A stretch of DNA of 23,588 nt from a virus. Below the pieces are notes generated by a model. The model searched no databases and had not been told where the DNA came from. It worked only from the letters and a program-made list of their open reading frames with translations. The position numbers were made by a program, and so were the translations under genes. This document shows positions 12,325 to 23,588 of this stretch, in pieces. The stretch is from the IMG/VR virus record IMGVR_UViG_3300008108_000529, positions 1 to 23,588 of that record; one strand, written 5' to 3'. Numbering within the stretch: position 1 is the first letter of the stretch; each line of letters opens with the position of its first letter.

Positions 12325-12332
12325 GATAAATA
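12325..12332 (+). promoter_or_regulatory. T4-like late promoter box GATAAATA
   Basis: CGATAAATAC lies 18 bases after the terminator and 23 bases before the ATG at 12356. It is the same octamer as at 1519 and 17792, each time in an intergenic gap at the head of a gene block. This copy leaves room for a short untranslated leader. Confidence 0.65.
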
Positions 12333-16258: not shown

Positions 16259-16699
16259 ATGCTATCAGATAACTTAAAAGTATTATTAGCAAGTACGCAA
16301 AGCTTTGCAATCAAATCACAAAACTTTCATTGGAACATTGAGGGTAGTGATTTCCCACAATATCATGAATTTTATGATAATCTTTACAATGATGTTCACA
16401 ACACAATTGATAGAATTGCTGAGTATGTAAGAATATTAGGACACTATACTCCTGGCAGTTTACAGCGTTATGGTGAACTGACTATCATTCCTGATCAAAC
16501 AAAGATTCCTAGAGCAGAATTAATGTTTATGGAAACATTAAGTGACATTGAAAGAATGCTCGAATTAATTATACCTATGTTTGATGAAGCAACTAATGAA
16601 AGACAACAAGGTATTGCAAACTTTTTAGCAGAGTTACAAGATTTGTATGGCAAGAAAGCTTGGTTCATTCGTAGTATTCTTAAACGTGAAAGAGCATAA
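16259..16699 (+). CDS. dps: Dps-like ferritin (DNA protection during starvation family)
   Basis: The 146-residue product has the usual length of compact Dps proteins and the full ferroxidase site. H24 (in NFHWNIEG), H36 and D40 (HEFYD), D51 and E55 (TIDRIAEY) fall at the same relative spacing as H51, H63, D67, D78 and E82 of E. coli Dps. The four-helix bundle continues through ELMFMETLSDIERMLELI and ends with KKAWFIRSIL. Dps proteins form 12-subunit shells that oxidise Fe2+ with peroxide and store iron; many also bind DNA. There is no long Lys-rich N-terminal tail here, so DNA binding is uncertain. The start lies 1 base after the previous stop; the stop overlaps the next ATG (TAATG). In a phage it could protect DNA from oxidative damage or sequester iron. 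Confidence 0.9.
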   Translation: MLSDNLKVLLASTQSFAIKSQNFHWNIEGSDFPQYHEFYDNLYNDVHNTIDRIAEYVRILGHYTPGSLQRYGELTIIPDQTKIPRAELMFMETLSDIERMLELIIPMFDEATNERQQGIANFLAELQDLYGKKAWFIRSILKRERA

Positions 16700-17002: not shown

Positions 17003-17073
17003 TTCACCTTAGGACCGTGAGGGCGCGGCTGCTGCGCTATCCAAAGGAGTCGTGCCCTGAGGGTTTAAGTGAG
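17003..17073 (+). promoter_or_regulatory. GC-rich foldable leader covering the desaturase start
   Basis: Within otherwise AT-rich DNA, 17011-17063 has 36 G/C of 53 bases by hand count. Three nested stems can be drawn: P1, 17003-17007 plus 17009-17011 with 17066-17073 (one bulged C, one G-T); P2, 17014-17016 with 17062-17064; P3, 17020-17027 with 17051-17058 (eight pairs, one G-T). A 3x3 internal loop separates P2 and P3, and a 23-base apical loop spans 17028-17050. The GAGGG Shine-Dalgarno (17059-17063) and the GTG start (17069-17071) both lie inside the fold, so it could gate translation. I cannot assign an Rfam family. The manA and wcaG motifs known from marine phage and cyanobacteria are the first to test. 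Confidence 0.55.
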
Positions 17074-17788
17074 CTACAACATTATGATCAATATACTCTA
17101 CCTACTTTTAACAACACATATAACAATAGCATGTGTTACACTTTATCTACATCGTAGTCAAGCGCACAAGGGCTTAATTTTTAATCCAGTCATATCGCAC
17201 TTTATGAGATTTTGGCTTTGGTTAACTACTGGTATGGTTACTAAAGAGTGGGTAGCAGTTCACAGAAAACATCATAGATATTGTGAAGAAAGCCAAGATC
17301 CGCACAGCCCACATGTGCATGGTTTTTATAATGTATTATTTAAAGGTGCGTTACTTTATAATGATGCTGCAAAAGACAGAGCTATGGTGTCATATTATGG
17401 TGTTGGAACCCCAGATGATTGGATAGAAAATAATCTATATTCAAAGCATAGTAAATTAGGAATAACAATACTATTGTTAATTGACTTATTAATGTTTGGT
17501 TATTGGGGATTGTTAATTTGGGGCATACAAATGATTTGGATACCATTTTGGGCTGCAGGAGTCATAAATGGTGTAGGTCATTTTTGGGGCTATCGTAACG
17601 GCGAAACAAGAGATAATAGTAAAAATATAGTTAGTTTAGGTGTAATTATAGGCGGGGAAGAATTACACAACAATCATCATCTAGATCCTGCCAATCCCAA
17701 ACTCAGTAAGCGTTGGTTTGAGTTTGACATTGGTTGGTTATATATTAGTATATTTAAAGTTTTAGGGTTGGTTAAAGTCAAGCCCTAA
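17069..17788 (+). CDS. Membrane fatty acid desaturase
   Basis: The three histidine boxes of the acyl-lipid/acyl-CoA desaturase family are all present: H28-RSQA-H33, H65-RK-H68-H69 and H200-NN-H203-H204. The family GYRNGETRDNSKN stretch precedes the last box. Hydrophobic segments (residues about 4-25, 40-55 and 135-165) fit the membrane-embedded di-iron fold. At 239 residues it is shorter than typical cellular delta-9 enzymes (about 270-320), as expected for a trimmed phage version. I chose GTG 17069 because GAGGG sits 5 bases upstream; the in-frame ATG at 17084 has no Shine-Dalgarno. Desaturases are documented auxiliary genes in cyanophages. It would introduce a cis double bond in host lipids to change membrane fluidity during infection. 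Substrate and bond position are unknown. Confidence 0.92.
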   Translation: MSYNIMINILYLLLTTHITIACVTLYLHRSQAHKGLIFNPVISHFMRFWLWLTTGMVTKEWVAVHRKHHRYCEESQDPHSPHVHGFYNVLFKGALLYNDAAKDRAMVSYYGVGTPDDWIENNLYSKHSKLGITILLLIDLLMFGYWGLLIWGIQMIWIPFWAAGVINGVGHFWGYRNGETRDNSKNIVSLGVIIGGEELHNNHHLDPANPKLSKRWFEFDIGWLYISIFKVLGLVKVKP

Positions 17789-17791
17789 TCC

Positions 17792-17799
17792 GATAAATA
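17792..17799 (+). promoter_or_regulatory. T4-like late promoter box GATAAATA
   Basis: CGATAAATA in the 16-base gap between the desaturase and the deaminase fusion; the ATG follows 5 bases later. The close spacing is like that at 1519, so a transcript from here would begin at or near the start codon. Confidence 0.55.
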
Positions 17800-17804
17800 T
17801 ATTA

Positions 17805-18686
17805 ATGCGTATATCAGACTTTAAAATTCACAACACACAAAAACTAGACCGTATTCTCGCAAAGTTATGTGAGATGATTATTGACGGGCAAAAAGACGAT
17901 CCTGACTACTATGGTATGGTAGCAGCATGTGTACTTGACACACAAGACGAAGCTGTTTGTGCAGTCAATTATCAGAAAGGTGATCAGCGAGTACACGCCG
18001 AAAAAGCAGCGGTTGAAAAATATATGAATCAATACGGCGACATACCTGCTGGAAGTATCATAATTACTACACTAAGTCCATGTAGCGAGATGATGAGAGA
18101 ACGCTATGGAGACGACTGCACAGACTTGATAGAACAGATAGGAGTGCATAAAGTATACTGCGGATATGAAGATCCTACACAGGATGACAGTAGTAACTAT
18201 GTGCATAAGACGTTTCATGTAATGGAAACAAAAAATGAAAAACTTAAAGAATTATGTAAGTCTTTTGCTGATACATTTTTAGAAAAAGAAAAGATAGCAG
18301 AAAATAAACAAATAATGGAAGCAGTATTAAAAGTTAATACCGAAGAAATGGTTCCTAAATTTGTTGAGTGGTCAAAGCGTGTGTTGAAATTAGAATCTGA
18401 TCCTGAGATAGAATTAAGTTATGATACAGAAGAAGCACAAAAAGGCCATCATACTGGTCGTCACACTACAGACGATAATAAAGTATGGGTCTATGCAAAG
18501 AATCGTAACTTAGTAGACATATTAAGAACAGTATTTCACGAATTAGTTCATGTACGCCAAGGTGAGTTGAATATGATTAAGCCAGGTGACAGTTATCCTG
18601 GTAGCCCAATAGAACGTCAAGCAGATGAGTTGGCTGGAAAATTCATAAAGATATTTGGTGAAAAACATCCGGAGATTTTCCAATGA
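17805..18686 (+). CDS. RibD-like deaminase fused to an HExxH zinc metallopeptidase-like domain
   Basis: Residues about 10-150 form a cytidine-deaminase-fold domain. H64-A-E66 supplies the zinc ligand and catalytic Glu, and TLSPC93SEMMRERYGDDC105 gives the two Cys ligands, with spacing like RibD pyrimidine deaminases (PCxHxGRTPPC) rather than free cytidine deaminases. A Lys/Glu-rich linker (about 150-180) leads to a second zinc domain. There H245-ELV-H249 is an HExxH site, and E270 in ERQADELA is the likely third ligand of a gluzincin-like fold. The 293-residue protein has no signal peptide. It leads the run of overlapping genes to 22996 and ends ATGA into the next gene. The deaminase substrate (nucleotide, RNA or a modified base) and the zincin target are unknown. 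Both domain calls rest on complete metal motifs. Confidence 0.8.
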   Translation: MRISDFKIHNTQKLDRILAKLCEMIIDGQKDDPDYYGMVAACVLDTQDEAVCAVNYQKGDQRVHAEKAAVEKYMNQYGDIPAGSIIITTLSPCSEMMRERYGDDCTDLIEQIGVHKVYCGYEDPTQDDSSNYVHKTFHVMETKNEKLKELCKSFADTFLEKEKIAENKQIMEAVLKVNTEEMVPKFVEWSKRVLKLESDPEIELSYDTEEAQKGHHTGRHTTDDNKVWVYAKNRNLVDILRTVFHELVHVRQGELNMIKPGDSYPGSPIERQADELAGKFIKIFGEKHPEIFQ

Positions 18687-22624: not shown

Positions 22625-22651
22625 ATGAGAGCAAACGAATTTATAATAGAA
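22625..22651 (+). other. Candidate capsid-targeting peptide MRANEFIIE (second copy)
   Basis: Same nine residues as at 21686, followed by S instead of Y. The proteins are unrelated beyond this point. Confidence 0.6.
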
Positions 22652-22996
22652 TCGTTTCCTGGTAGAAACAAAAACAAAATATATTCTTTGTTGATAAATT
22701 CTGTTGATTCTGGACCATTTGACGGCGGCTGTGTTATTTTCGCTAGAGCATTACAAATTAAACACGGCGGTGATATCGTTGTATTGACAGGTAAACATGG
22801 TGCAGATCATGCAATATTGAGTCTTAATAGAAAATTTGTTGATGCTGATGGACCTGCTGAACCAAACCAATTTATAAAAAGATTCATGCAAAATGAACTT
22901 GCAGAAATAACCGGAGTCCGTCCAATTAAGGATAATGATTTACCAGACGCTCCTAGAAGTGAAGAACTATCACAACAAATAGCAAAACTATTGTAA
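22625..22996 (+). CDS. Small papain-like (NlpC/P60-like) cysteine-peptidase-like protein
   Basis: The 123-residue protein begins MRANEFIIE|S. Its core has the order of a papain-like fold: C36 in FDGGCVIFARAL at the start of a helix, then H62 in GADHAILSLN at the start of a strand, then D73 in FVDADG as the third polar residue. The G-G-C-x-x-x-A-x-A-L and D-H-A-x-L patterns fit minimal phage members of this superfamily. Its length is close to the catalytic core alone, with no cell-wall-binding domain. The ATG follows the previous stop with no gap, and the gene ends the long coupled run; the tilS promoter is next. Possible roles are peptidoglycan amidohydrolase, transglutaminase-like enzyme or deamidase; the sequence does not choose between them. 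Confidence 0.65.
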   Translation: MRANEFIIESFPGRNKNKIYSLLINSVDSGPFDGGCVIFARALQIKHGGDIVVLTGKHGADHAILSLNRKFVDADGPAEPNQFIKRFMQNELAEITGVRPIKDNDLPDAPRSEELSQQIAKLL

Positions 22997-23006
22997 CCAA
23001 AAGTAG

Positions 23007-23035
23007 TTGTTTATTTTACACATCTATGCTATACT
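23007..23035 (+). promoter_or_regulatory. Sigma-70 promoter with extended -10
   Basis: TTGTTT (23007-23012), a 17-base spacer and TATACT (23030-23035) with TG two bases upstream (TGCTATACT, an extended -10). The predicted start of transcription is about 23042, the ATG of tilS itself. This host-type promoter contrasts with the late-type boxes elsewhere and suggests early expression of the downstream genes. Confidence 0.65.
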
Positions 23036-23041
23036 ATATAG

Positions 23042-23588
23042 ATGATCAAATTACTCTTTCCCTTACCCAAAAAAGTAGTTATCGCATTCAGCGGCGGTGT
23101 GGATAGTGTAGCTGTTGCTGATTTCTTGCGTAGGAAACATGATGTAACATTAGCATTCTTTCATCATGGTACAAAAACAAGTGATTGGGCACATACTTTT
23201 GTGCAAGACTTTGCTGGTGCAAGAGAGTTACCACTGGTAGTTGGACATTTAACTAAACCATATCCAGATGGTGTAAGTAGTCAAGAGTTTTGGCGTGATG
23301 AACGGTATAAGTTTTTAGAGTCATTTAAAGATCCAGTTGTTACTGCGCATCATTTAGATGATTGCGTAGAAACATATATTTGGTCATGTATGCATGGTAA
23401 TCCAAAAGTTATTCCTTCACAACGAAACAATGTATTACGCCCGTTTCTTACTACATCAAAAGCAGATTTAATTGATTGGGCAGAAAGACATGAATGTGGT
23501 TGGATTGAAGATCAATCTAATACTGATACCAAATACATTCGTAACTATATCAGACATGAAATGTTGCCACACGCATTACATGTTAACC
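23042..23588 (+). CDS. tilS: tRNA(Ile)-lysidine synthase, 5' part
   Basis: The 182 visible residues carry the N-type ATP-pyrophosphatase P-loop S17-G-G-V-D21-S22 (in VVIAFSGGVDSVAV), the HHLDDCVET motif at residues 103-111 (HHADDQxET in bacterial TilS), a RPFLTTSKADLIDWAERH stretch and WIEDQSNTDTKYIRNYIRHE. The last two are specific for TilS within the family. TilS makes lysidine at the wobble base of tRNA-Ile(CAU), switching it from AUG to AUA decoding. Phage genes in this window use AUA often, so the enzyme would help their translation. The gene runs off the window, so length and C-terminal domain are unknown. The ATG lies about at the predicted transcription start, with no Shine-Dalgarno. 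Confidence 0.9.
   Translation, partial: MIKLLFPLPKKVVIAFSGGVDSVAVADFLRRKHDVTLAFFHHGTKTSDWAHTFVQDFAGARELPLVVGHLTKPYPDGVSSQEFWRDERYKFLESFKDPVVTAHHLDDCVETYIWSCMHGNPKVIPSQRNNVLRPFLTTSKADLIDWAERHECGWIEDQSNTDTKYIRNYIRHEMLPHALHVN

Follow-up and report, generated by a model that had tools for sequence, protein, structure and literature searches.

An N-terminal-domain-only tRNA(Ile)-lysidine synthetase of freshwater phages, with a predicted promoter at its start codon and few AUA codons

A phage genome fragment ends in a gene for a tRNA(Ile)-lysidine synthetase (TilS) which is reduced to the N-terminal domain (NTD) of the enzyme. The gene is preceded by a sigma-70-like promoter whose predicted transcription start falls on the start codon, and its reading frame is depleted of AUA codons in an AUA-using genome. 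We consider it likely that this minimal TilS, made early from its own leaderless promoter, converts the tRNA-Ile2 of the phage, and that of the host, for AUA-rich genes expressed later.

The window, the whole stretch of DNA analysed here, is the entire 23.6-kb IMG/VR record IMGVR_UViG_3300008108_000529, a fragment (Table 1). At least 17 other viral contigs carry a complete tilS relative including its start, and a search with a jumbo-phage TilS added 24 further phage loci, most of them in a second clade. TilS identity between the two clades, A and B, is 53-56%. The tilS group is one of freshwater phages. Phage TilS proteins are already known (PMC6892783, PMC8504454). In the open-access literature we found no earlier report of an NTD-only phage TilS noted as such, of a promoter at a tilS start codon or of AUA avoidance in tilS.

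Table 1. Positions of tilS, its predicted promoter and related features in the window
Feature	Position	Strand	Basis or remark
Candidate late-promoter octamer GATAAATA	17792..17799	+	5 nt before the ORF at 17805; position alone
Last gene of the upstream block, late-type, N-terminal tag MRANEFIIE...	22625..22996	+	Other genes here in relatives
Conserved 5' element CCAAAAGTA, just before the TTG box	22998..23006	+	Comparison of relatives
-35-like hexamer TTGTTT	23007..23012	+	TTG(T/A/C)TT in clade A; TTGATT in L015
Extended -10, TG-C-TATACT	23027..23035	+	TG at 23027-23028, TATACT at 23030-23035
tilS start codon ATG, predicted +1, zero-length leader, no Shine-Dalgarno	23042..23044	+	Promoter spacing; in-frame stop upstream
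tilS, NTD-only tRNA(Ile)-lysidine synthetase	23042..23588	+	TIGR02432, PF01171, PDB matches, model

Identity and architecture of the phage TilS

The tilS frame of the window is interrupted by the contig end, which leaves 182 of about 207 codons. The relative L002 encodes a TilS of 207 aa that is identical across the shared part. A TAG stands in frame directly before the ATG, and the next start-type codon in the frame is a GTG at residue 20, within the PP-loop motif SGGVDS (residues 17-22); the start is therefore placed at 23042.

The preliminary description had taken this gene for tilS, and both profile and structure comparisons agree. The window product reaches 112.8 bits against the curated N-domain model NCBIfam TIGR02432 (cut-off 93.6), matches Pfam PF01171 and finds TilS chains in the PDB. 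The catalytic-domain motifs SGGVDS, TAHHLDDCVET, RPF and EDQSN...RNYIRH are kept. Structure prediction from the single sequence was poor (pLDDT 45), while an alignment of 19 rows brought the pLDDT to 91.9. Foldseek ranks 1-5 for the model are all TilS, as are the top matches of VIA-align (best match 2e89, Z 23.2, rmsd 3.1, 207 aligned residues, 30% identity); the next family in the latter ranking is TtuA, with a Z of 18.1. By profile and modelled fold, the phage protein is a real TilS.

The PP-loop NTD fold and its motifs are common to the phage protein, the type II TilS of Aquifex aeolicus (1wy5, 2e21, 2e89), the type I TilS/MesJ of E. coli (1ni5) and the G. kaustophilus TilS-tRNA structure (3a2k). 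However, described TilS enzymes carry at least one C-terminal domain, type I having two and type II one (PMC12514573), whereas the phage protein stops at the end of the NTD. Full-length phage relatives, at 199-208 aa, reach no further than the NTD/linker helix, the whole protein aligns to residues 6-241 of the 317 of the Aquifex enzyme, and neither CTD1 nor CTD2 is present in the full-length relatives or in the model alignment. The phage TilS thus belongs to neither type and is an NTD-only form of the family. Since known TilS bind tRNA via their C-terminal domains, an NTD by itself could have low activity or act on another substrate. A TilS that works in this form would challenge the need for such domains in the selection of tRNA-Ile2.

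The absence of both C-terminal domains from a protein of about 207 aa could also mean that TilS activity was lost along with them, leaving a PP-loop enzyme with another role, be it on a different tRNA, in thiolation or against a tRNA pathway of the host or of defence. Other PP-loop enzymes of tRNA (TtuA, for instance) and LarE share the fold at lower Z. We nevertheless judge such a role to be very improbable: the TIGR02432 cut-off that the protein passes is that of an equivalog-domain model, TilS chains stand above every other PP-loop family in the structure ranking, the NTD motifs SGGVDS, TAHHLDD..ET and D.SN.....RN.IRH are retained, and the AUA avoidance described below would be left unexplained.

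A predicted promoter at the start codon

The bases before tilS are exactly those that the preliminary description had claimed, an extended -10 with a TTG box 17 bases upstream (spacer 23013-23029). Six bases, ATATAG, separate the -10 hexamer from the ATG and, with +1 set seven bases past this hexamer, the predicted transcript begins at the A of the start codon. The -35 matches at 3 of 6 positions only, and for this reason a stricter scanner (at least 4/6 per hexamer) does not list the site; the promoter-like sites which that scanner lists in the window are no commoner than in shuffled sequence. The arrangement TTG-N17-TGNTANNNT-N6-ATG is expected 0.13 times per dinucleotide-shuffled window. 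Taken alone, this one sequence makes a modest case for a promoter, while comparison with relatives puts the site far beyond chance.

In all 19 distinct tilS upstream regions of clades A and B, a sigma-70-like site scores 8-12 and its -10 ends 6-7 nt before the ATG, the relatives being non-independent samples, though clade A differs from clade B all along the spacer. Under the same scoring, a score of 9 is attained by only 12 of the 317 control ORF starts. A Shine-Dalgarno precedes none of the 19 tilS starts, compared with 32% of the control starts. The distance from -35 to -10 is 16-18 bp throughout, and the -10 stands 6 nt before the ATG in every clade A region and in the majority of those from clade B. 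Every distinct clade A region has the TG, a -10-like hexamer and a 17-bp spacer; clade B has fuller -35 boxes (TTGATA, TTGCAA, TTGACT). A host-type promoter as proposed in the preliminary description is thereby predicted in both clades, with its spacing to the ATG maintained.

Conservation extends to the CCAAAAGTA element, which reads CCAAAxTA(A/G) in relatives and CCAAT or CCGAAA in clade B. Its mean pairwise identity within clade A is 0.85, compared with 0.33 in the region of the upstream genes (-110 to -51). These genes vary from relative to relative, but a conserved block spans CCAAA through the ATG. It begins right past the upstream stop codon, and a recombination junction could be conserved in the same way: on this reading, most tilS expression would come from late-operon read-through, and the block would hold no promoter. 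Given that a terminator is predicted nowhere before tilS, late read-through is possible. As the main route of expression it is quite improbable, however. The divergent relative L015 retains five of six bases in both the -35 and the -10 of the window-type sequence, at identical spacing, though its spacer agrees at no more than 5 of the first 14 positions. Clade B shows the same geometry built from different sequence, and internal initiation on a read-through message would have no Shine-Dalgarno to rely on.

The promoter reading implies a leaderless tilS message, as predicted from spacing. 70S ribosomes are able to initiate at 5'-terminal AUGs (PMC9031893). Lambda cI, the classic leaderless phage mRNA, has its AUG at the 5' end and no Shine-Dalgarno, as predicted for tilS (PMC9031893); cI is a repressor gene, whereas tilS encodes an enzyme in a T4-like phage and is predicted to be leaderless. 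Leaderless starts may be common in the early-type genes of this phage group, DNA polymerase included.

Among the high-scoring controls, a 104-aa ORF, a 76-aa ORF and the DNA polymerase look like leaderless genes too. Sigma-70-like sites lie 5-7 nt before the ATG at L002:9332, L013:4091 and L032:3190, and at the 76-aa ORFs of L033 and L036.

Gene order around tilS

Late-type genes lie upstream of tilS, fibre genes first and then a run of genes whose products share the N-terminal tag MRAxEF(I/L)xE. In the relatives examined whose contigs reach far enough, the genes downstream encode a DsbA-like transcription regulator (phrog_639), then in most cases a small membrane protein, and a family-B DNA polymerase (phrog_262). 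Clade B keeps the order tilS, DsbA-like gene, membrane protein, DNA polymerase. Judged by this gene order, the late-to-replication boundary at tilS is real.

The tag is found in the window at 18683, 19777, 21686 and 22625, and in the genes before tilS in L006, L011, L016 and L019. It is common to unrelated proteins (GH19-like, HicA/kinase-like and others; 15 distinct tags) and recalls the capsid-targeting sequences of T4 internal proteins (T4 ipI begins MKTFKEF). The tagged run resembles an exchangeable cassette whose proteins may be packaged in the virion. ORFs for a DesA-family fatty acid desaturase (17069-17788) and a Dps/ferritin-like protein (16259-16699) lie in the window after the fibre genes and before this run. 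An AMP-binding (acyl-CoA synthetase-like) ORF follows right behind tilS in two relatives only, at L006:8597 (contig end) and L015:1532.

Promoter class and timing

The preliminary description had seen a switch from late to early genes at tilS. The boundary between late-type and replication genes is in keeping with this, while the promoter itself is not of the standard early type. That type is seen in a 117-kb contig which encodes an 88%-identical TilS and contains 28 TTGACA-17-TANNNT sites (3.0 expected), mostly before other genes. Many of these promoters share the spacer start ATAAATCC, and their leaders of about 30 nt often include a Shine-Dalgarno. The tilS promoter departs from the standard TTGACA-17-TATAAT plus leader in its TTGTTT -35 and its predicted leader of zero length. 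The term early, as applied to tilS, is inferred from sigma-70 likeness and gene order. The 117-kb relative (L032, L033 and L034) has early promoters that are alike beyond the hexamers (TTGACAATAAATCC..TTGG..TATAAT), with similar leaders after them.

A middle-class promoter would account for several of these features. Host RNA polymerase would recognize the extended -10, and a phage activator would act near -35 to -45 on the CCAAA..TTG element. The weak -35, the conserved element upstream of it, the different early consensus of the 117-kb relative (TTGACAATAAATCC..TATAAT with leaders) and the DsbA-like transcription regulator gene adjoining tilS downstream all suit this arrangement; the fuller -35 boxes of clade B speak against it. 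On balance, we regard it as somewhat unlikely. Judged by eye, the spacing to the -10 does not fit a MotA-like middle promoter of T4.

Turning to the late genes, TATAAATA, the late octamer of T4, is depleted or absent. A candidate late promoter, leaderless at times, is GATAAATA. The ORF behind the copy in Table 1 is the first in the series of genes that leads up to tilS, and further copies lie at 1519-1526 (4 nt before a late ORF) and 12325-12332 (23 nt before a late ORF). Compared with shuffles, the octamer is about as frequent as chance, yet nearly always stands just before an ORF; this includes large ORFs in relatives.

AUA use and its avoidance in tilS

The preliminary description had spoken of an AUA-using genome, and in the window AUA indeed amounts to 25 per 1000 codons and 41% of Ile codons (24-36% of Ile codons in three relatives). 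None of the 8 Ile codons present in the window tilS is AUA. Over 28 phage tilS loci, AUA accounts for 12 of 335 Ile codons, compared with 1540 of 4133 (37%) in neighbouring ORFs, an approximate baseline since the neighbour sets are mechanical calls that include some spurious ORFs. The depletion is found in clade A (6/88, neighbour fraction 0.30), in clade B (1/111, 0.38) and in phage tilS outside the two clades (4/101, 0.48). When each of seven lineages contributes a single locus, AUA makes up 5 of 84 Ile codons where 36.5 are expected; 20,000 gene-level resamples never came that low (minimum 18). Most other TilS matches in the phage collection were excluded as unannotated, UNVERIFIED or short, possibly bacterial records. 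A single scan of a genome collection returned one bacterial TilS and no phage-type TilS in any bacterium.

Could the low AUA content reflect nothing but general early-gene codon usage, or that of a recent host? In the 117-kb relative, genes behind strong early promoters do show less AUA (16% against 34%). Early genes, however, are low in several A-ending codons, whereas tilS of clades A and B has a GC3 equal to that of its neighbours and no depletion of other A-ending codons as a class, although single codon families deviate (for example Gly in clade A, Ser and Ala in clade B). Because early genes lose AUA together with other A-ending codons, this trend explains part of the depletion at most. 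The depletion is, moreover, confined to the reading frame (ATA occurs in tilS at 2.6 per 1000 in frame and at 51 and 14 per 1000 in the other two frames), and the scorable Bacteroidota tilS genes do not avoid the codon (92 of 463, or 20%, against 14% in neighbours). We therefore hold codon usage as the sole cause to be unlikely.

Phage tRNAs and the candidate tRNA-Ile2

A phage tRNA-Ile(CAU) had been anticipated alongside tilS in the preliminary description. No tRNA gene was found in the window or in the first 19 relatives; the 117-kb relative has a large set, with 24 tRNAs according to ARAGORN and 28 according to Rfam. Three of these have a CAU anticodon: an initiator (C1xA72), an elongator-like tRNA (UUCAUAC loop) and an Ile2-like tRNA (L031:10875-10951) with CUCAUAA, A38 and U44, as in tRNA-Ile2. 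Overall similarity leaves Ile2 (39.9) and elongator Met (40.4) unseparated, and the assignment consequently follows from elimination and a few features, by which the third CAU tRNA is a probable tRNA-Ile2(CAU). In place of C4:G69, an element of the E. coli enzyme, it has U4:A69; TilS identity elements vary among species (PMC12514573).

The exact pattern derived from this candidate occurs in 10 further contigs, and TilS is present in 4 of the 11 records overall; a search with the pattern CTCATAA was uninformative. The 220-kb record G014 has the candidate tRNA and no TilS match; since it also has no DNA-polymerase match, it is not clearly of the same lineage. Among the phage contigs, the 220-kb IMGVR_UViG_3300032322_001765 (L053) has 24 tRNAs and a tmRNA call.

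Proposed mechanism

In the sequence of events that we propose, host RNA polymerase would begin the transcript at the tilS AUG. The promoter would split the late from the replication block, and tilS would be transcribed with the pre-late genes, independently of late read-through. Its AUA-free message would be translatable while lysidine-bearing tRNA-Ile2 is scarce. The minimal TilS would turn C34 of tRNA-Ile2(CAU), that of the host and that encoded elsewhere in the phage genome, into lysidine, and the modified tRNA would then let AUA-rich later genes be translated. If this is true, a minimal TilS finds tRNA-Ile2 without any C-terminal domain. More tentatively, we put forward the possibility that selection has excluded AUA from phage tilS, such that the NTD-only enzyme is made first and then opens the AUA-rich late genes; together with the leaderless promoter, it would form a translational gate between infection phases.

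The proposal suggests a reason for a phage to carry TilS that goes beyond upkeep of the host, namely a phage-controlled supply of AUA decoding paired with a phage tRNA-Ile2. An AUA-free tilS would be the codon-level signature of this role, and could be looked for in other viruses with TilS, for example the chloroviruses.

Relation to known systems

The closest parallel is found in the Pseudomonas jumbo phages MIJ3 and PA5oct (PMC6892783), whose TilS is likewise NTD-only (203 aa, 42% identical) and whose tilS is also AUA-poor (2/15 against about 55%); the MIJ3 genome likewise has an Ile2-like tRNA(CAU). Unlike in the window, their tilS starts 3 nt after the preceding gene, which leaves no spacer for a promoter of its own. 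MIJ3 TilS has been proposed to support host viability, and the available text of that report does not make the link to tRNA-Ile2 (PMC6892783). The Ralstonia jumbo phage RsoM2USA also combines TilS with many phage tRNAs, but its TilS has 349 aa (PMC8504454); our searches of the phage collection did not find it.

tRNA-Ile2(CAU) is common in T4-like phages, where it is annotated as Met (PMC1524935); k2C34 has been measured on the tRNA(CAU) of a T4-like vibriophage (cited in the review PMC13191261). As far as the available text of these sources goes, the phage tRNA(CAU) is, as here, meant as an AUA-reading tRNA-Ile2 (PMC1524935, PMC13191261), no phage TilS is described and host enzymes are suggested as modifiers (PMC13191261), whereas the phage of the window brings its own TilS.

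Lastly, chloroviruses resemble the present phages in combining a virus-borne TilS with AUA-rich genomes and tRNA clusters (PMC7589089). The available text of that study does not address the tilS promoter or the gene's own codon use. According to the same text, tilS of PBCV-1, a virus of a eukaryotic alga and in this unlike the phages described here, is transcribed very early, by 7 min (PMC7589089).
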